From assembly GCA_903858815.1 (NCBI GenBank), contig CAIOKE010000251.1, positions 1-64,000 of the forward strand: DNA of 64,000 bases, in the 5' to 3' direction. The translations under genes and the position numbers were made by a program. Each line of letters begins with the position of its first letter. Position 1 is the stretch's first letter. The stretch is from an uncultured Planctomycetaceae bacterium (GTDB lineage: Bacteria; Planctomycetota; Planctomycetia; Planctomycetales; Planctomycetaceae). Below, in pieces: positions 14,364-26,916 of the stretch. The notes under the pieces are model-generated. The model searched no databases. It worked only from the letters and a program-made list of their open reading frames with translations, and was not told the DNA's origin.

Positions 14364-16214
<1,851 letters not shown>

Positions 16215-16282
16215 CTTGATTTACCGCCTGATTTTCAACCAGTACCAAAATCTGAAAAACCGTTTTCCGCCCGCAACCCTGC

Positions 16283-17089
16283 TTACTCAACAGAGGCTGT
16301 CTCTGCTTCCTGCACGCCGTCCTCATTCTGCTCACGTTCCAGCCGCGTCAGATAGGCCGAAACCCCCTCAGGAGACTCAGCAACAATCCGCGCTTTCATC
16401 TTGTAGTGCCCCCAACCACACAGCTCGGCACACAACAGCTCATAATCGCCCGCCTCCTCGATCTCAAACCACACCGGGATCACCAACCCCGGAACAGCAT
16501 CCTGCTTGACTCGCAATCGAGGCACGAAAAACGCATGCTGTACGTCCTGAGTCCGCAGATTGATCATCGTCGGCACTGCAGCGGGAACATGCACCTCGTT
16601 GACGTAGTACAGATCACCGGGCTGCGGGGAAGTCATCAGGTCTGTCCCCGGCTTAGGATACCGAATCCGCCACTCGAACTGACGAGCCATCACTTCAGCA
16701 ACCGGGGCTTCCTTCACCGAATCCGGAAACCGCGACAGAACTCGAATGTCTGCCAGCACGTCCAGCTGTGTCAGCGAGATAAAGACCAGTACGAAAGCCG
16801 GAACAATCGTCCAGACGATCTCCAGCTTGTGGCTGCCGTGCGAAAACCATGCTCGACTGCTGGGGTTCTTTGTCGCACCCTTCCATAAGGCATATCCAAG
16901 CGCAAACTCGGTGCCCACGAAAGTGACTGTGACAATAATCAGAATCAGATAAAACAGCCCGTCGATCTGATGCCCCAGAGTCGACAAAGGCTTACTGGGG
17001 AACCACCAGTTTCGACCCGGTGCGATCACGCACAGATACAGGGCAACCAGAGGCCAGAACCAGAAAAACAACGCCCAGAACTTCTTCAC
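16283..17089 (-). CDS. coxB: Cytochrome c oxidase subunit II
   Basis: Subunit II carries the binuclear CuA centre that accepts electrons from cytochrome c. Two membrane helices occupy about residues 4-24 and 42-66 or slightly beyond, followed by the periplasmic cupredoxin domain. The CuA ligands are all present: His185, Cys220, Glu222 (backbone), Cys224, His228 and Met231, in CAELCGWGHYKMK. There is no CxxCH, so this is not a caa3-type fusion; the dihaem cytochrome encoded just upstream could be the donor instead. The start is GTG with GGAGAG five bases upstream. There is no typical lipobox. Confidence 0.96.
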   Translation of the reverse strand: MKKFWALFFWFWPLVALYLCVIAPGRNWWFPSKPLSTLGHQIDGLFYLILIIVTVTFVGTEFALGYALWKGATKNPSSRAWFSHGSHKLEIVWTIVPAFVLVFISLTQLDVLADIRVLSRFPDSVKEAPVAEVMARQFEWRIRYPKPGTDLMTSPQPGDLYYVNEVHVPAAVPTMINLRTQDVQHAFFVPRLRVKQDAVPGLVIPVWFEIEEAGDYELLCAELCGWGHYKMKARIVAESPEGVSAYLTRLEREQNEDGVQEAETASVE

Positions 17090-17156: not shown

Positions 17157-18584
17157 TCACTCACCAGCGGCAGGTGCCGCAGCCGCGTCCGGAGCAGCCG
17201 CTGGAGCCGCTGCCACGCCAGTCGCACCCGGCTCCGACTCAAACGGTATGCTCAGTACGTAATTCACGATGTGCCAGATATCTTCGTGCGGAGTGTTCTT
17301 GAAGGAGGGCATACGCGACCCCTTAATACCCGCATGAATGCGACAGAACAGATCAATCGGTCGTCGCCCGCCTCGGAAAATTCCCGTGTGCAGGTTGCGA
17401 GGCTGATTCAGGTTGTCCCAGACATCATGCAAACCCGGTTCGTTGTACGGAACGCTCGTCACCGGGTTCTTTTCATAAATCATCGTCTGAGGACCATTGC
17501 CAGCACCGTCAATCCCATGACAGTCTGCACAGTTCAGCGTCTTGCTCAGGTACAACTCGCGACCACGACGACGCGACTCGTCAGAATCCGGCACTCGGGG
17601 AACTGATGGGATAATACGCGCATCCTCGGTGTCCGCGGCAACCCACGTTTCTTCAAGCTCTGCACCTATCCCGTCCACCACCCCCGGAAGATCCTCAGCC
17701 AGAAACTTCGCCAACTCGCCAACGATGTCAGACCGCTGCTCGTCCTTCAGACGTGATTCAACAGCGTCTTCCGAGAAGTCCGATGCCAGTTCGTTGACCA
17801 GCTTACGCTCAAATTCCCCCCGCATTGACAGGAACCGCACATACTCCACAATCGCTGTCAGCTCATCGTCCTTCATCAACAGGAACGAAGGCATGTACGT
17901 GCCCGGTATGCCGTATCGCAGAACTCGCAACAGGTCATCGCGACTGACCTTCGACATGTCATTTGTCGAGGTGAACTTGAAAACTCCATGGCGGTAATCA
18001 CGCGGACGAGGATACAGGTACTGGGCCGTTGGGCCGTTTCCGTCGCCCGCCGTTCCGTGACAATGACTGCAATGCCGCATGTACAGGACACGGCCAGACT
18101 GAATCGTTGATCCGCCGTCGATACTGCAGATGTCTCCGGCAGCCAGCGAACCACCGTCAAGACCTGTCAGGACAGCCTCGCCAGTCGCAGCATCCCACGA
18201 GCTCACGCTGAACGTTTTGCCAGCACCGGCACCCGTTACAACGTTGACGAAACCAGCCTTCTCCGGGAACGTCTGTCCCTCCTCGGCTGTAAACTTCACC
18301 TTCGCTTCGCCACCATCGGCAGCAAATACTTCAACCTTCGCCGCGGCACCACCCCACTGCACGGGCAGTTTCATCCACGCCTTCAGTGTCTGCGGAGTAC
18401 CGAACTTCTGGTCCAGAAGCGCCACCACACCGGGTGACTCTGCAATGCCGGCCTGCGCTTCCGGAATCAGCGAACGAGTTTTTTCGCTGATTGAAAACGA
18501 GGCGTTATTGTCGGAGCAGCCGGTGACAACGATCGCCAGAAACGCTGCGATCCCCGCCCTCTTCAGTACTGCTGTATGCAACAT
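17157..18584 (-). CDS. Dihaem class I cytochrome c lipoprotein
   Basis: The product has a signal with lipobox-like VVTGC, then an unrecognised beta-like domain (about 90 residues), then two cytochrome c domains with CSHCH and CADCH haem sites and candidate axial methionines in YMPSF and SRMPSF. An Ala/Pro-rich tail ends the protein. It should be anchored at the outer face of the cytoplasmic membrane and is encoded directly before coxB, so it is a likely electron carrier between the Rieske/cytochrome b complex and CuA. The ATG at 18584 (475 residues) gives the most natural lipoprotein signal; in-frame ATG at 18605 and GTG at 18614 are alternatives. Confidence 0.85.
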   Translation of the reverse strand: MLHTAVLKRAGIAAFLAIVVTGCSDNNASFSISEKTRSLIPEAQAGIAESPGVVALLDQKFGTPQTLKAWMKLPVQWGGAAAKVEVFAADGGEAKVKFTAEEGQTFPEKAGFVNVVTGAGAGKTFSVSSWDAATGEAVLTGLDGGSLAAGDICSIDGGSTIQSGRVLYMRHCSHCHGTAGDGNGPTAQYLYPRPRDYRHGVFKFTSTNDMSKVSRDDLLRVLRYGIPGTYMPSFLLMKDDELTAIVEYVRFLSMRGEFERKLVNELASDFSEDAVESRLKDEQRSDIVGELAKFLAEDLPGVVDGIGAELEETWVAADTEDARIIPSVPRVPDSDESRRRGRELYLSKTLNCADCHGIDGAGNGPQTMIYEKNPVTSVPYNEPGLHDVWDNLNQPRNLHTGIFRGGRRPIDLFCRIHAGIKGSRMPSFKNTPHEDIWHIVNYVLSIPFESEPGATGVAAAPAAAPDAAAAPAAGE

Positions 18585-18649
18585 GATTGCCAGCCCCAGT
18601 CTCATCAAACCCACTCAAGGATCAAACACCAAAACCACAACCAACCACA

Positions 18650-19531
18650 CTACAGTTTCAACAGCGCCGCCGGGTACTCAACCTGCACGTCGGTCGTCTC
18701 GCCTGCCTTCACTTCGACTGCCAGTTTTCGCTGCACAAAGTTGCCGTCAGCCGCCTCATGCCAAACCACAAATGAATGCTGACCAACCGGCAGGTCTGCA
18801 ATCACAAACTCTCCGTTCTCATTGGTCACAGCCCCGTACGGATGGTCAAGCGGCAGATGCCACGCATTCATCCACGCGTGATAGTCGCACTTCACAGCCA
18901 CAGGCACTGCCTCAGCCTTCTTGTAGACAACTGTCAACTTGCCCTCGCGGTCCATAGGGGCTACACCAGAATTGACGGAGGTGTTCTTCGATGGGTAGGT
19001 GTGAGTGTTGTGGGCCACTCCGTCGTTGCTGAGAACCTTGACGGTCTGACCAACCGGCAACACAACAGTGTGCGGATAAAACCGACAGTTCTTCTGGTCG
19101 AACACGAATGGCTCAGCAGGGGCCGCCACAGCACGCCCACCCTTGGGAGCCTTCTGGAGGTAGACGAACACATTCGCTACTCCACCGTCTCCACTGACCA
19201 TCAGACGCTCATCCGGCACATCCACTGCCGCACACACTTCCTTGTCCTTGATGTCATCGCCGGCTTTGACCAGCAGCTTCATCGTCGGCGCTCCACCAGT
19301 CATCATCACACGACCCCGGATGGATCCGACAGCGACCTCACCGGCCCCTTCAGCACCTTCCGACGCATCGCCATCGCCCGCTGCTTCTGCAGAAGACAGG
19401 AAGACAACCTGAGGAACAACAGAGGCACCGCCCCCGATCGTTGGCTGGCCATATTCACTGCAACCCGCAGACACGGATGCCAACGCCGCAGTGGCGGCAA
19501 CCAGACAGACCTTTGACTGTAACATCGACAT
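18650..19531 (-). CDS. Cupredoxin-like lipoprotein of the respiratory cluster
   Basis: The 293-residue product has a lipoprotein signal (lipobox VSAGC) and a domain opening with GSIRGRV, then a cupredoxin-like section with VKVLSNDGVAHNTHTYP and CDYHAWMNAWHLP, and a C-terminal carboxypeptidase-regulatory-like beta fold (GAVTNENGEFVIADLPVG). His, Cys, His and Met residues are arranged as possible type 1 copper ligands, but the spacing is not standard, so copper binding is only a suggestion. The ATG shares a base with the stop of the octahaem gene (TGATG) and has GGGAGGAG upstream, so translation of the two is coupled. It probably serves in electron transfer or assembly beside that cytochrome. 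Confidence 0.75.
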   Translation of the reverse strand: MSMLQSKVCLVAATAALASVSAGCSEYGQPTIGGGASVVPQVVFLSSAEAAGDGDASEGAEGAGEVAVGSIRGRVMMTGGAPTMKLLVKAGDDIKDKEVCAAVDVPDERLMVSGDGGVANVFVYLQKAPKGGRAVAAPAEPFVFDQKNCRFYPHTVVLPVGQTVKVLSNDGVAHNTHTYPSKNTSVNSGVAPMDREGKLTVVYKKAEAVPVAVKCDYHAWMNAWHLPLDHPYGAVTNENGEFVIADLPVGQHSFVVWHEAADGNFVQRKLAVEVKAGETTDVQVEYPAALLKL

Positions 19532-22500
19532 CACTCGTCTCCTCCCGCTGCCGGAGCCACAGGAGTGGCGGCCGCTGGCGGCTGATAAATCACAGGTCCG
19601 TAATCTTCCAGCAACTTCGAGTAGTTCATCAGAGCATCCCGGGTCGCCATGACATGTGCGTCCGGATCCCCCTTGAACTTATCAGGGAACTGAGTCGCGT
19701 TCTTACCGTAGTTGACAGGCATCGAAGTGTAAGGTGTCACCCACGCCGGCTTGTACAACCACAACTTCACCCAGTCAGGACGCAGCCGATTCTGCACATC
19801 AACCAGGTTGGGCCCCTGAATGTCCTTCGCCGGATCCGACGCCTTGAAACGACGGCCACCCAAAGAGTGACACTTCACACACAACGGACCATTCAACAGA
19901 TGCCACGACTCATTCATGTAACTCTGCTCGTCCGTCAACAAACCAGCAGCCGTCAGATCAGCAGACTTCTGATCCAGATAGTCCACGTCCTTCGGCCCCT
20001 GATCCTCGTATGGGAACTGGGCCCCGTCAACGGCCGCGAAGTAGTTCGCCAGTACTCGGGCTTCCTGCGGACTCAGGTTAAACCGCGGCATACGCAGAAC
20101 CGTTGTGTACCGAATCTTCCCAGGCTCCAGCAGGAATGAGTACAGCCAGTTTGTCTGAACTTTGATACCTTCCTGATACAGCGGAGGTGGAGAAGCCTGC
20201 CACGCCAACTTTCGCTGGTCAAATCGATAAGTCAGCAGCCGATCAACGAGCAGTTCGGCATAAGAGCCACCACGAGGCCCCTGGTAATCCACCAGCCGAG
20301 ACTCTGCGAATGAAACTGGTGCCCCCGGCAGCAGCAGTTTGGGCTCTTCAGCCGTCCCAAAGTCAACGGGCTCCCAAACCTCAAAGCCATACTCACGCAA
20401 CTCAGCATCTGTCTCTTCCGGGTCAGGCTTTGATGACAGGAAGCCATGGAAGCTGCCCACAGGCAACTTTCGTTTCTCGCCGTCCGCCACAAACTCCTTC
20501 TCTGCCCCCGTCAGCCCTTTACGCGGCGGACGAACCTTCAGCAGCAGGTCGCGAGCCACCTCGTGGTCGCTGGCATCCAGCGCCGTCGACTCAAGGCCAG
20601 CCAGATCGTCGATTGCGAAGGTGACCTTCGGCAACTCCACGACGTGACAGCCTGTGCAGTTGTACTTGGCCAGCAGGAACTCACCCTCAATCCGAGTCTT
20701 CTCACGCTCGTCCGGAGCGTAGACATACTCTTCAGCAGGAGGCTCTGCCACAAGGCCCAGCACAAAGGTAGCAATCGCCTCAATCTCGTCTTCCTTCAGA
20801 GGGAACTTCGGCATTCGCAGCCGCTCGTCATACCCCTTCGTCTCTGTCTTCTCGTAGTCATAAGTGCGAGGCCCTCGCAGCTTCTGCCAGATGAACCCCG
20901 GACGACCATGACGCTGCAGACTGTCGTAGAAGAAAGACGCAGTCATCTCCCGAGCTTCTTCCTCTGCCGTGAACTGGCCCTTCGCAGCACCACCGGCAGC
21001 AGCCCGCTTACGGGCAGTCAGGATACGATCGGCTGTACTTGCATGAGCTGACCCGGGAGCCTCGCCATGATGATGCAGATACTCTTCAATGTGCTCAAAC
21101 CCCAGTTTGCTGGTGTCCTTCCGGCCCCAGTCCTGCAGAGCAACCCCGATCGGACGAGCCTCTTCGTAACCGGGCATGTCGTGACACGCATAGCAGCCGT
21201 AACGAGAAATTGTCTTGCGGCCAACATACTGCAGTTTCATTTCACGCCACTGAGCAGCATCCGTCACGGCCGCACCGTCCGCCGTGGCCAACACGGCTTC
21301 GTCACCAATGATATCCGCCTTCTTCTGGGGGAAGGCCATCCCTGAAATAATCTTCTTCGCTGCGTCCTCGCCGAAACGATTCTTCTTCAGGTACAGCTCG
21401 ACCAGTTTGTCCAGTTCCGAATCTTCAACCACAGCGACCGGGAAGTTGCCCGGATCACCCTGCTTCAGCAGGAAGGCAGTGATATCAGCCGCCGGATCAA
21501 TTTCGGTGGTGCCGTCGGCGTCGAGATATGCGTCGAGGTACAGATTCGGCATACGCGTTCGCTTGTGATACCGCTCCGGCTCTCGCAACCATGTGTACAG
21601 CCAGTCGCTGAACGCCGGGTCATCCGCGTTCCGCTTCACTTTCTGATGAATGTCACTGATGTTCGGCCCGAAGTCCTCTTTGGACTCCGGAATCGCAGCA
21701 TGCGAATGGCAAGCCAGACATCCGCGCTCAACAAACAGCTTCTCGCCACGCTCCGCGTCAGCAGAGTAGCCATCCTTAGGCTGCAACAGGTCGATTGACT
21801 CTGAGGTCGACAGCAGTACAGAAGCAATCCCCGCAAGCTCTGCAGCTTCAAACTTCTTCGTCTGCCCTTCGTCCGTTGTGCCGAGGTGATCCGTCAGACT
21901 GAAAAACTGAGGCATCTTTGTGGTGGGACGATAGCGAGTCGGAATCTCAGTCCAGTACTGGATGAACTCGGATGATGTCTTCGCCGCAATGTGTCGCAGG
22001 CTGGGACCGACCTTGCGGTACTTGCCCGGCTTAGACGTTGGATCCTCTGCCGCTGCAGTCCGAGCTTCCTCGGTCTGCGGTTCCAGTCGCATGTCAGGGC
22101 CTATCGACGTCTCACCGTCAAAGCCGTGGATTTCGTGGCAGCCGTAGCAACCATACTTCTGCATCAGCTGCCAGCCACGGTGCACCTTCGGTGCCGAGGC
22201 ACCGAACTTTGGATGCACACCCAACTCGGTCATTGAGTGGTGACACTTCACACAGCCCGACTCAATGAATCGCGCCGGCTGCATCGGGTACTCCCAGAAG
22301 TGGTTCGGGTGGAACCCATACTCATGATGCCACTCGTCGGACAGATGCGGGTCGTTTGGTGTGTGCTCGGCATTGCCGAAACTGGTGCCTGAACCCTGAC
22401 CGTCATGACAGATTGTACAACCAAAGGTCCCCACTGGGTGCGGACTTGACGCCGAACAGTACAGATCTGTGTTCGGGTGAGTTGAGAACGGCTGAGGAAA

Positions 22501-23382
22501 TGCAGAAGCCTGAATCCATTTCGCCACGTCCCCGGTCTCGGGATGTCCAGCCGGATAGGCAGGAACCCCACCTGGACCCGTCTTGTCAATATTCTGGTGG
22601 CAGGTCCGACAGCGGTCAAAACGCGCAATCTTGGCCATGCCCAGCGTAATCTTCAGCTTCGGCACCCAGTCCTGCACAATCTTCAGGTGAGAATTGAAAC
22701 CATCAATGATCGGAAGCTCCATCAACGACCGCTTCAGCGAAGAAATGGTGCTGCTGGGTCGGATGTTCTCCAGAGCCGCGCGAATCCGATCGGCCTCGGC
22801 CGTCAATTTCCCCTGAGACGCCGTCAGTTCATCCAACTTCGCTGTGATCTGCTTCGACCTGGCAGCCACCTCGGAAAGCTGCTCCTTCTCACCGTCCAGC
22901 TGACGCTGCATCTCGTCACACATGCCCTGGCGTCGACGGTACTCCTCAAGTCGAGCATTCTTCAGCTCTTCAGGGAGTGCATCGCGAACCGCGAGATCGA
23001 AGTTGGCGCGAGCTTCATCACGATCCGAATTGCGGAACTTGAGGTCAACCTCAAGAGCCTCAACGCGACGTTCCCTTGAGCTGACATCCGCCAGCAACGT
23101 CGCCTGCTCAGCCTGCTGCTTTGCTACTTCGGCAGCAGTTTCCTCGATCTGCTTCGCGATCTGGTCGCGATTGGCTACGAAATCAGCGTTCTCAACCTTC
23201 CGCAGTTCCCGTTCGCGAATCTGCGAGTCGATTTCGAAGGCCGTTCGTTGCACGTCACGCCACTCGTCGTTCTGGTCCTGCCGCAGCATGGCATAGACCG
23301 ACAGCAGCATAAACACGCTGCTGGCCGCAAAGACCGCGTGAAGCGTTTTCTGGTTCCAACGAAAATCATCTGTTGCTGGCAT
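19531..23382 (-). CDS. Octahaem cytochrome c with membrane anchor and coiled-coil stalk
   Basis: The 1283-residue protein starts with one membrane helix (about 13-32), then a highly charged coiled coil (about 45-205), then a large periplasmic region with eight CxxCH sites at residues 258, 322, 377, 412, 555, 730, 909 and 1168. The first four lie within 160 residues and the rest are widely spaced. It occupies the position expected for cytochrome c1/f in a Rieske/cytochrome b operon and is a strong candidate to replace it, taking electrons from the Rieske protein. Multihaem subunits are known in anammox Rieske/cytochrome b complexes. The C-terminus is Ala/Pro-rich. It is coupled to the cupredoxin-like gene by a TGATG overlap. 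Confidence 0.9.
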   Translation of the reverse strand: MPATDDFRWNQKTLHAVFAASSVFMLLSVYAMLRQDQNDEWRDVQRTAFEIDSQIRERELRKVENADFVANRDQIAKQIEETAAEVAKQQAEQATLLADVSSRERRVEALEVDLKFRNSDRDEARANFDLAVRDALPEELKNARLEEYRRRQGMCDEMQRQLDGEKEQLSEVAARSKQITAKLDELTASQGKLTAEADRIRAALENIRPSSTISSLKRSLMELPIIDGFNSHLKIVQDWVPKLKITLGMAKIARFDRCRTCHQNIDKTGPGGVPAYPAGHPETGDVAKWIQASAFPQPFSTHPNTDLYCSASSPHPVGTFGCTICHDGQGSGTSFGNAEHTPNDPHLSDEWHHEYGFHPNHFWEYPMQPARFIESGCVKCHHSMTELGVHPKFGASAPKVHRGWQLMQKYGCYGCHEIHGFDGETSIGPDMRLEPQTEEARTAAAEDPTSKPGKYRKVGPSLRHIAAKTSSEFIQYWTEIPTRYRPTTKMPQFFSLTDHLGTTDEGQTKKFEAAELAGIASVLLSTSESIDLLQPKDGYSADAERGEKLFVERGCLACHSHAAIPESKEDFGPNISDIHQKVKRNADDPAFSDWLYTWLREPERYHKRTRMPNLYLDAYLDADGTTEIDPAADITAFLLKQGDPGNFPVAVVEDSELDKLVELYLKKNRFGEDAAKKIISGMAFPQKKADIIGDEAVLATADGAAVTDAAQWREMKLQYVGRKTISRYGCYACHDMPGYEEARPIGVALQDWGRKDTSKLGFEHIEEYLHHHGEAPGSAHASTADRILTARKRAAAGGAAKGQFTAEEEAREMTASFFYDSLQRHGRPGFIWQKLRGPRTYDYEKTETKGYDERLRMPKFPLKEDEIEAIATFVLGLVAEPPAEEYVYAPDEREKTRIEGEFLLAKYNCTGCHVVELPKVTFAIDDLAGLESTALDASDHEVARDLLLKVRPPRKGLTGAEKEFVADGEKRKLPVGSFHGFLSSKPDPEETDAELREYGFEVWEPVDFGTAEEPKLLLPGAPVSFAESRLVDYQGPRGGSYAELLVDRLLTYRFDQRKLAWQASPPPLYQEGIKVQTNWLYSFLLEPGKIRYTTVLRMPRFNLSPQEARVLANYFAAVDGAQFPYEDQGPKDVDYLDQKSADLTAAGLLTDEQSYMNESWHLLNGPLCVKCHSLGGRRFKASDPAKDIQGPNLVDVQNRLRPDWVKLWLYKPAWVTPYTSMPVNYGKNATQFPDKFKGDPDAHVMATRDALMNYSKLLEDYGPVIYQPPAAATPVAPAAGGDE

Positions 23383-23469: not shown

Positions 23470-24792
23470 TCAGATATTGAAGAACCACTCGGGGATACCA
23501 ACGATGTACTTCAGAGAAAACGCCCATCGCAGGAGCATCTTGATCGGAAGGATCGCCATCCACAGGATGAGATTGCTGAACACAAGGAATCGCAGCACAC
23601 CCATCCGTGCAAAATACGTTCTCAGAACCGTGATGCCCATGATCGGGGGCAGAACAGCAAAATAACCGATGATCAGCAGGATGCCCGGCAGCTCACGCAG
23701 CAGAATCCGGTCAACCGTCGTTCCCTTGGGAACACCAGATCCCAGACCATCCCAGAAAAACTCACTCAGGTTGACGTTATTCGCGGCTTCTACTTTATGA
23801 ACGTCCCAGTACTCGTAGATACCGAAGAAGTTCCAGTTCGGACCTCGAAGAAATGTCCCCAGTACGATCAAAGCCACCCACAGCGGCAGGAACCCGAAAA
23901 GGAATGTCGAGACCGCAAAGGCACGATCTTTGAAGCAGTAGTAGCCGTTGCCGCGTTTGTTAAAGTCGATATACGGAACGGCCATCAGTCCGCCCAGAAT
24001 AATGCTGGGTAATACCACACCCGCAAGCCACGGGTCGAAGTAAACAAGCATCTCCTGCAATCCCAGAAAGTACCAGGGGGCCTTCGAGGGATTCGGGGTC
24101 TTGACAGATGAACCGGGCTCCTCCAGCGGAGCCTTCAGGGCAATCCCCCAGAAGATCAGAACAGCCGTCAATACGACCATACAGATCAGCTCGGTGTAAA
24201 CCAGGTCCGGCCACACCAGTACCTTCTCGTTGTTTTCCTGCTCGAACAGTGGCCGCCCTTCCTCGATCCGGCGGTCATTGTCAACCGCACGACGGAAATA
24301 AATCCACGTGCAGAATGCCACGATGAACAGCATTGCGACAATCGGAACGTTGTCCGGCTTACCGACGATCTGACGGAAGTCATAGTCGGTCAGGCTCAGC
24401 CCCATGAAGATCAGCGACACGTTCAACAGCACCCATGAGACCTTTGGCTTCGTCCACCACTCACGGAGCGAGATCATGCCCCAGAACCCAAGGATCGAAA
24501 GCACGAAGTACAAGACGGGGTTCGAGAAATACCGATCAAACGGGTCCTTGAATGCCGACGGCATCGAGATCAGAAAACCTTCCGGCGGGTAGGTGAAGTG
24601 ATATGCCGAAACCATCATCAGGATCGAGGCGTACGTGGCCCAGACGGCGGCGCGAGGCACTCCGTTGGAAAACTCCCCATCCTCACGATAGCTTCTGACC
24701 GTCCAGGCCAGATTCATGAAAAAGAGCAAAAGGTAGTACCAGCCCAGCCCAATCAGCACGCTGGCGGTCAGGTCCGGATGAGCATTCAACAT
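23470..24792 (-). CDS. Cytochrome b C-terminal half fused to extra membrane helices
   Basis: The 440-residue integral membrane protein contains the C-terminal cytochrome b domain, comparable to subunit IV of the b6f complex, beginning near VWPDLVYTELICM at about residue 195. It includes the quinol-oxidation-site loop with PSKAPWYFLGLQEML, the form seen in menaquinol-type complexes in place of the PEWY loop. Before it are about 190 residues with roughly five additional membrane helices, and after it about two more. These extra helices are absent from ordinary subunit IV. No haem-ligand His pairs are expected here. It lies between the cytochrome b N-half and the octahaem gene. Confidence 0.9.
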   Translation of the reverse strand: MLNAHPDLTASVLIGLGWYYLLLFFMNLAWTVRSYREDGEFSNGVPRAAVWATYASILMMVSAYHFTYPPEGFLISMPSAFKDPFDRYFSNPVLYFVLSILGFWGMISLREWWTKPKVSWVLLNVSLIFMGLSLTDYDFRQIVGKPDNVPIVAMLFIVAFCTWIYFRRAVDNDRRIEEGRPLFEQENNEKVLVWPDLVYTELICMVVLTAVLIFWGIALKAPLEEPGSSVKTPNPSKAPWYFLGLQEMLVYFDPWLAGVVLPSIILGGLMAVPYIDFNKRGNGYYCFKDRAFAVSTFLFGFLPLWVALIVLGTFLRGPNWNFFGIYEYWDVHKVEAANNVNLSEFFWDGLGSGVPKGTTVDRILLRELPGILLIIGYFAVLPPIMGITVLRTYFARMGVLRFLVFSNLILWMAILPIKMLLRWAFSLKYIVGIPEWFFNI

Positions 24793-24890: not shown

Positions 24891-25664
24891 TCACAGCGGC
24901 TGGCTGATCCCACCGTCTTTTCGCACACGCCAGAAGTGAATCGCAATCAACAAGCTCACCACAAGCGGAATTGCTACGCAGTGCAGAATGTAAAATCGAT
25001 TCAATGTGGCTTCCCCCACAAATCGACCACCCAGAAGCAGGAACTTCGCGTCGGAAGCGTTCGTGATCAGCTCGTATCCACTGGTATTGAACACCTGGAA
25101 GCCCGGGCCCTCAACACCAAGGAATGGAGTTGCCTTAGCCATGTTTGATCCCACGGTGATGGCCCAGATGGCCAACTGGTCCCAGGGAAGCAGGTAGCCC
25201 GTGAATGACAACAGCAGCGTCAACACCAGTAGTAGAACCCCAATCACCCAGTTGAATTCTCGAGGTGGCTTGTAGCTGCCCGTCAGAAACACGCGGTACA
25301 TGTGCAGCCAGACCGTGATCACCATGGCGTGAGCCCCCCAGCGGTGGATCTCACGCATGATCCCCAGAGTCTGCACGTCACGCAGCGCCTGGATGTCGTA
25401 GAAGGCCCATTCGAGCGTCGGCCGATAATAAAACATCAGCAGGACGCCCGTGATGGCTTCCACCAGAAACAGAAAAAACGTGATGCCGCCCATGCACCAC
25501 GTGTAAGACAGAGCAATGCCCTGCTGCTTGATCGAAACCGGATGCAGGTGCAGGAAGAAGTTCGTGAGCATCACCACAACACGGTTACGACGGTCTGTCG
25601 GTGCCGGGTGACGAAACACACTCTTCCAGATCTGCGAATTACGAATATAGTCGCCGACTGACAC
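24891..25664 (-). CDS. Cytochrome b N-terminal half (b6 type)
   Basis: The 257-residue protein has four membrane helices holding the two b haems: His107 and His121 in the [11 protein letters not shown] helix, and His228 and His243 in the fourth helix, with the 15-residue step typical of b6. Cys57 in CMGGITF followed by [11 protein letters not shown] aligns with the cysteine that covalently holds the extra haem ci in cytochrome b6 and Bacillus QcrB, so a third haem is predicted. It should oxidise quinol, probably menaquinol, with the Rieske protein. The start is GTG with GAGGG about six bases upstream. Two separate genes encode the two cytochrome b halves, as in b6f. Confidence 0.94.
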
Positions 25665-25851: not shown

Positions 25852-26916
25852 TCAGCCCGTTGAAACAAACGACGAGGCGTTCGTCCACTGACCAAGCTCA
25901 CGCTGGAACTTCACACTCTTGTCGACTTCCAGCATCCCGTCCTCGGCTAACCGCAATCCCACTCGTTCCAGTGGACGCGGAGCCGGGCCTTCGAAGTTGA
26001 TTCCCGACTTGTAGAAGCCGGAACCGTGACACGGACACTTAAACTTCTGCTCGCCTTCCAGCCAGTTCGGAGTGCACCCGAGATGAGTGCAGACTGTGCT
26101 GAGTGCGTAAATTGAACGGACGCCGTCGACTTCAGAATTCACAACCCAGATGTTGAACTGAGCCTGCCACTTTGTGGATACGGTCCCCGGAGCATAATCG
26201 GTCGGCGGGCCAATCTTGAACTTTGTCGGGGGTTCAACCAGCACATTCGGCATCATAAAGCGAGCCAGTGCCAGACCTGAGGCGGCCGCAGCACCACAAA
26301 AGCTGCCCCATGCGATCACCAGAGGGCTGAACAACGTGGCGGTAATGGCCCCCACGGCGGACCGACGAGCCACCTCGGGGGCAGCCTTGGTGGCGGCCGC
26401 AGGAGCAGCCTTGCCGGGCAGCGGCTTCGAAGGCAGCACGACCTTGGGAGCAGCGGGAGCACCGGATTCGGCTGACCGGGCTGCCCGAATCATCTCGGCT
26501 GGAGACAACCCGGTCGGCTTGGCTGCCGCAGGTGCTGCAGAGGCGGCTGCAGCTGGGGCCGCGGCAGCAGGTGCTGCAGCCGGAGCACCACCCTTGGCAC
26601 CGCGGATCGCCGCCATGATGTCGGCTGGAGAACCAGGCTTCGCTGCCGGTGCCGCAGCAGTCGCAGCAGCCGCGGCGGGTGCCGGAGCAGCAGCGGCAGC
26701 ACCCTTGGCAGCACGAATCGCTGCCATGATGTCGGCCGGAGAACCAGGCTTCGCTGCCGGAGCGGCAGTCGCCGCTGGGGCCGGTGACGGTGACGGTGCA
26801 GGTGCCTCTGGGGCCTCAGCCGCCGGCGCAGGAGCAGCAGCGGCCGCACCAGCGGCAGCCTTCGCAGCTCGAATCTTCGCCATGATGTCGTTCGAAGAAG
26901 GCTTCGGATCGCTCAT
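25852..26916 (-). CDS. Rieske iron-sulfur protein with repeated N-terminal motif
   Basis: The 2Fe-2S ligands are Cys276 and His278 in CTHLGC and Cys294 and His297 in CPCHG, with Cys281 and Cys296 placed for the stabilising disulfide. One membrane helix spans about residues 188-218. The first 180 residues are unusual: very rich in Ala and Pro, with three near-identical copies of (N/A)DIMAxIRxAK at about residues 9, 61 and 98 and a fourth related copy, AEMIRAARSAE, at about 140. A normal Rieske protein has a short N-terminus. The extension is predicted to be cytoplasmic and flexible. It is the first gene of the respiratory cluster, so a promoter should lie just upstream. Confidence 0.95.
   Translation of the reverse strand: MSDPKPSSNDIMAKIRAAKAAAGAAAAAPAPAAEAPEAPAPSPSPAPAATAAPAAKPGSPADIMAAIRAAKGAAAAAPAPAAAAATAAAPAAKPGSPADIMAAIRGAKGGAPAAAPAAAAPAAAASAAPAAAKPTGLSPAEMIRAARSAESGAPAAPKVVLPSKPLPGKAAPAAATKAAPEVARRSAVGAITATLFSPLVIAWGSFCGAAAASGLALARFMMPNVLVEPPTKFKIGPPTDYAPGTVSTKWQAQFNIWVVNSEVDGVRSIYALSTVCTHLGCTPNWLEGEQKFKCPCHGSGFYKSGINFEGPAPRPLERVGLRLAEDGMLEVDKSVKFQRELGQWTNASSFVSTG

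Follow-up and report, generated by a model that had tools for sequence, protein, structure and literature searches.

A repeated short helix on the long N-terminal arm of a planctomycete Rieske protein: a putative cytoplasmic docking arm of a complex III-oxidase module

The stretch of DNA analysed in our study (the window) comprises 64,000 nucleotides from an uncultured Planctomycetaceae bacterium (contig CAIOKE010000251.1) and carries at 25852..26916 (-) the gene of a Rieske iron-sulphur protein of 354 amino acids, whose open reading frame is recognised by Pfam (PF00355, E 1e-8, 35.2 bits against a cut-off of 20.3) and has its best PDB match in 9rk3 (E 9e-38). The protein begins with an Ala/Pro-rich arm of residues 1-183, predicted to be cytoplasmic (26368..26916, -), which is followed by the twin arginine R184-R185 of a Tat-type signal anchor (26362..26367, -), a transmembrane helix of residues 187-221 (26254..26358, -) and the Rieske [2Fe-2S] domain at residues 240-317 (25966..26199, -), and its ligand boxes CTHLGC and CPCHGS are invariant in an alignment of 56 orthologues. 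Downstream on the same strand, cytochrome b is encoded in two pieces: a b6-like N-terminal part of 257 aa (24891..25664, -; Pfam Cytochrome_B), adjoining the Rieske gene in 78 of 80 loci, and a C-terminal, subunit IV-like part of 440 aa (23470..24792, -; Pfam Cytochrom_B_C E 0.0016, weak NCBIfam SUIV-type match), present in 72 of the 80. These are succeeded by a multihaem cytochrome c of 1283 aa with an N-terminal membrane anchor and coiled coil (19531..23382, -; Pfam Cytochrom_C and Cytochrome_C7; 67/80 loci), a cytochrome c of 485 aa (17157..18614, -) and the COX2-COX1 pair identified by Pfam (14364..17089, -; COX2 16283-17089, COX1 14364-16214). As all these genes run in the same direction, the Rieske gene is a member of a complex III-oxidase gene cluster. 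Between this anchor and the first haem motif the multihaem cytochrome has a coiled coil of about 200 residues. The same genome also holds a second Rieske/cytochrome b pair (G000:C112:2230-3138, -) with frames for a 245-aa Rieske protein and a 695-aa cytochrome b.

The arm consists of 44% Ala and 17% Pro, and the pattern [ST]..[DE][IM][LMI]..[IA]R matches it exactly four times, at residues 7, 59, 96 and 138. Copy 1 is SSNDIMAKIR (residues 7-16, 26869..26898, -), copies 2 and 3 are both SPADIMAAIR (residues 59-68, 26713..26742, - and residues 96-105, 26602..26631, -) and copy 4 is the variant SPAEMIRAAR (residues 138-147, 26476..26505, -). When the arm was shuffled 20,000 times with its composition preserved, the motif matched 0.00005 times on average and in no case twice. 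An in-frame TAA lies immediately 5' of the ATG of the Rieske frame, so that translation cannot start farther upstream. Related genomes share the N-terminus M[ST]DP.PS. In a codon comparison summed over eight close pairs, pN/pS was 0.18 in the motifs vs 0.35 in the linkers, and in the same pairs the motifs contained no gap columns while the linkers had about 10%. This shows that the whole arm is under purifying selection, the motifs more strongly than the linkers, and together with the evidence for the start it establishes the arm as a real protein segment and not an annotation error. The four-copy Ala/Pro arm ahead of the Rieske domain, first seen in a preliminary description of this DNA, is thus confirmed, and the start codon, which that description had named as a possible point of failure, lies before the repeats.

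The Rieske relatives were gathered with the core domain alone and comprise 80 named loci plus further ones from whole genomes. Core-domain relatives of up to 95% identity are all planctomycetes as far as the records name them, with Fuerstiella MAGs at 75-79% identity to the Rieske core; one orthologue (L093) belongs to the cultured Thalassoglobus neptunius. Close relatives keep the motif: it is lacking in only three of 84 distinct Rieske ORFs, all three truncated by contig ends, and the remainder carry one to five copies, mostly three to five, so that every orthologue with an intact N-terminus has the array. The 56-orthologue alignment was picked from ORFs with at least one motif, and for that reason it informs on the positions within the motif and is not an independent proof of its presence. 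In this alignment R16 of the first copy is invariant, and so are the cluster ligands and R184-R185; conservation reaches at least 90% for I11, L12, R68, A102 and R105, whereas residues flanking the motifs vary. The copies also have flavours according to their place, P/L-S/T-T-x-D/E-I-L for the first, S-T-A-D-I-L-A-A-A-R for the middle and S-x-A-E-M-[IL]-x-A-x-R for the last. Linker length ranges from 9 to 166 residues among the orthologues and the net charge of the arm from -27 to +18, which speaks against a role by electrostatics alone. The arm is hence an array in which several copies of one conserved, predicted helix are joined by unconserved linkers.

The AlphaFold2 model, built with the orthologues, places one helix at each copy (residues 8-25, 60-71, 97-106 and 139-151) besides the membrane helix. 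The helix of copy 1 reaches a pLDDT of about 90 and the linkers 43-62, with a pTM of 0.41 for the single chain, in agreement with the earlier suggestion of short helices on flexible arms. The S/T-x-x-D/E pattern is a typical helix cap. The twin arginine precedes the membrane helix in all of the 75 orthologues; in the present protein it lies directly ahead of that helix, which is the only one, and this is the arrangement of a Tat signal anchor. Bacterial Rieske proteins are Tat substrates whose signal is not cleaved (PMC7317946), so everything before the twin arginine is expected to stay in the cytoplasm. The cytoplasmic side proposed for the arm in the preliminary description therefore agrees with the topology predicted from the twin-arginine rule.

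The same motif had been suggested to occur in NADH dehydrogenase or other respiratory subunits of this genome, and this was not supported: repeat and profile searches in six frames found no second motif protein in it, all other matches having E > 0.5, and the other ORFs of the Rieske loci searched contain no match to the strict pattern. The array does occur outside the Rieske protein in related genomes. The closed genome G024 encodes a stand-alone array protein of 290 residues (L207:9391-10263, G024:C1, +) beside cytochrome oxidase genes, in the order array, cytochrome c, COX2, COX1, and G237, of the same genus, encodes one of 277 residues beside COX2-COX1 (L213:8195-9028, G237:C318, -). These two proteins have seven to nine motif copies, such as SVADILAAAR, SVAAMLAAVR and SVGEMIAAIR, on Ala/Pro linkers, end with RGGWFARLFE and possess neither a Rieske domain nor a twin-arginine anchor. 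A third genome, G030, has a weaker, degenerate version ahead of cytochrome c and CtaA, and the cytochrome c which comes after the array gene in G024 and G030 is a homologue of the 485-aa protein of the window. A search covering G024 and G030, and not G237, found no close Rieske orthologue, and in all three genomes cytochrome b is present in a distant form only, the close form being absent. The cytochrome b of the second pair described above likewise has distant relatives in the bc1-less genomes examined. Immediately before the arrays of G024 and G030 lie related-looking lipoprotein genes (L207:7993-9321, + and L208:6467-7876, +), for which a functional link to the arrays is possible.

In one protein of family f5, an SH3-like N-terminal domain is followed by the array as a tail; this tail has six STADILAAARAKK-type copies in G040, and in both G049 and G057 it mixes STADILAMAR with STAEKLALLR. 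The same SH3-like protein is found in the genus of the window, where it bears SPLDKIRAA copies on Ala/Pro linkers. SH3-like domain proteins of this kind (about 8504-8722 of L210, -, G000:C234:12003-12221; L209:8290-9228, +) occur in 43 of 59 relatives, and those that were read combine Ala/Pro linkers with lineage-specific helical repeats, namely SPLDKIRAA, SPLELARQQGAA or STADILAAARAKK. The domain matches no Pfam family and has only a weak resemblance to KOW/L21e (E about 0.1). One motif copy also lies in a linker of a 962-aa fusion of nitrite/sulphite reductase, Rieske, FAD and NAD domains in G021 (L211:6882-9770, +), between the Rieske and flavin parts. Traces are seen in three relatives of this fusion and the motif is missing in most, due to which a fixed role in nitrite reductase was rejected; as so few relatives keep anything like it, the copy may be due to chance or recent. 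A 200-aa protein of unknown family (L212:6073-6675, -) has one motif copy at its start, MNKPSTADILAAARAAKK.

In a sample of 147 genomes of the phylum, mostly metagenome assemblies, Rieske orthologues are present in 72, and arrays recognised by the motif profile are limited to the family of the window and to family f5 of the same class, with one weak profile match in each of two further genomes. In the family of the window, 77 of 91 genomes have the array. The profile has 21 columns and gives weak E-values to diverged copies, so that absence here means no recognisable copy. In the Rieske orthologues read outside the class the motif is absent and mostly 10-40 residues precede the twin arginine. 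Plain Ala/Pro arms are seen there in L254, L256 and L275. Those of family f41, also rich in Ala/Pro, bear either two CxxC zinc-ribbon-like units with weak Pfam matches (L255) or two TSKISGQKMSWLxY units (L260). As the f41 arms carry other repeated modules, the arm seems to be a display whose modules can be exchanged from lineage to lineage.

A conserved ten-residue helix, repeated on free linkers and predicted to be cytoplasmic, is the basis on which we read the arm as a docking device. We consider it to be a cytoplasmic, multi-grip docking arm that belongs with the complex III-oxidase module and has a putative partner encoded outside the cluster, and assign this reading a probability of about 0.58. 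Residues 1-183 would form a flexible extension of the n-region before the uncleaved twin-arginine signal anchor, and the four helices would present one common binding surface made up of the S/T-x-x-D/E cap, the Ile-Leu/Met pair and the invariant or near-invariant arginine. Each helix could dock into the same type of pocket on a cytoplasmic protein, whereby one complex III would gain several weak grips of variable reach. The outcome may be a clustering of complex III together with the co-encoded oxidase, or the retention of a cytoplasmic partner nearby. The existence of stand-alone arrays argues that the function concerns neither cluster insertion nor Tat export of the Rieske domain, and their location beside oxidase genes points to a role of the arm in the complex III-oxidase module. 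Against the docking reading, most of the other bc1-less relatives examined have no array at the oxidase operon, which makes the arm dispensable in them, and the stand-alone arrays might be what is left after the loss of a Rieske gene. The bc1-less relatives include G018, G035 and G101.

From these features we infer the docking function, its multivalency and a receptor that is probably encoded away from the cluster. Across the 80 loci, with flanks of about 5 kb, none of the conserved neighbours has a domain that is obviously cytoplasmic. A partner encoded adjacent to the Rieske gene was considered and rejected, as conservation in the flanks is confined to cytochrome b and the multihaem cytochrome. 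Genes for carbohydrate kinase-like, pyridine nucleotide oxidoreductase-rhodanese and ABC proteins lie upstream of the Rieske gene in three to five loci each, counted within the same flanks of about 5 kb, farther genes being partly out of reach. It is conceivable, though we think it rather unlikely, that a single cytoplasmic receptor recognises the helix wherever it occurs, on the Rieske arm, in the stand-alone arrays, on the SH3-like protein and sporadically in the linker of the nitrite reductase fusion, and that such a planctomycete docking code organises respiratory and other enzymes in space.

The strongest of the competing explanations dispenses with a receptor: the helices would bind each other, in cis or between complexes, and the arms would zip complex III (and the oxidase) into clusters. 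Near-identical repeated helices, the freely variable number of copies (one to five) and length of linker, and the presence of the array beside both complex III and oxidase genes are all in line with such clustering. However, a helix of about 10-12 residues, whose third hydrophobic position is mostly Ala and not Ile in most orthologues, is weak for a self-sufficient bundle, and in the AlphaFold2 model (pTM 0.41) the helices appear apart on low-confidence linkers; self-association is a rather unlikely account. Tat substrates with cofactors are subject to quality control, some of them by chaperones which bind the signal, and since the arm is an extended Tat n-region, its helices might be gripped by a chaperone until the [2Fe-2S] cluster has been inserted and export can proceed. 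Such a maturation site is improbable, as the array is also found behind the SH3-like domain and in the stand-alone proteins devoid of Rieske domain and anchor, whereas the orthologues outside the class manage with their short N-termini and no array. Still less probable are amphipathic membrane-binding segments by which the arm would rest on the inner leaflet: the three DIMA copies of this protein have a mean hydrophobic moment of 0.35-0.37, but the common form ADILAAARA attains merely 0.15-0.18, the acidic residue is conserved, small Ala stands in place of bulky residues and the charge of the arm varies over the wide range given above. Finally, a mere spacer with partnerless helices, grown by slippage in GC-rich DNA, would suit the Ala/Pro low complexity and copies 2 and 3, whose DNA still shows the repeat (77% identity over 111 nt), yet it is scarcely credible, as a neutral spacer would lose the arginine and is already contradicted by the invariant R16 and near-invariant I/L/R positions across 56 orthologues, by the low pN/pS and zero gaps of the motifs and by the first and last copies, which have stayed distinct in type and in register.

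The docking arm is thus retained as the best available, putative reading. A large group of planctomycete bacteria has a core respiratory protein with a long flexible arm that is predicted to be cytoplasmic, and if the docking reading holds, a widespread complex III would be fitted with a grappling arm on its cytoplasmic side, which would reveal how planctomycetes keep their respiratory chain in position. The stand-alone arrays adjoining cytochrome oxidase genes point to the same system acting on complex IV. The sequence rules of the arm are now clear enough to direct tests at the peptide level. In the literature searched, which misses many subscription journals, no arm of this kind on a planctomycete Rieske protein was found, and within that scope the motif-bearing arm appears to be new on an already known kind of protein.

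In comparison to known systems, the protein resembles the bc1/b6f Rieske proteins in its Rieske fold with the full ligand motif CTHLGC...CPCHGSGF, in its single membrane helix after the twin arginine and in the adjoining b6-like cytochrome b, subunit IV-like protein and multihaem cytochrome c. Its nearest solved relatives are two Rieske domains (9rk3 and 9rk4) of Kuenenia stuttgartiensis, an anammox planctomycete, from which it differs by the 183-residue motif-bearing arm. A putative NAD(P) oxidoreductase has been described at the cytoplasmic face of the Kuenenia complexes (PMC12954380), and because of this a redox enzyme of the cytoplasm may be conjectured as a candidate partner for the arm to hold. 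The Ala/Pro-rich flexible linkers recall those of the peripheral-subunit-binding and lipoyl domains of 2-oxo acid dehydrogenases, to which the preliminary description had likened the arm; its docking interpretation is upheld in part, for the motif, the helices, the flexibility, the side and the putative docking itself, but not for this kinship, as Pfam matches the Rieske domain only and the motif has about 10 residues against a folded domain of 35. Disordered termini with short conserved motifs have also been proposed for cargo loading of encapsulins and microcompartments (PMC8346489); the Rieske protein shares the disordered terminus and short conserved motif, whereas it is a membrane protein with another motif and no adjoining encapsulin gene was recognised. 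A parallel in design exists with multivalent scaffolds such as the N-terminal region of CsoS2 and EPYC1, where repeated short helices on disordered linkers make several weak contacts (PMC10484944, PMC11570498). The Rieske arm has a different motif and is anchored in the membrane, and the likeness is one of design only, with no relation in sequence claimed.
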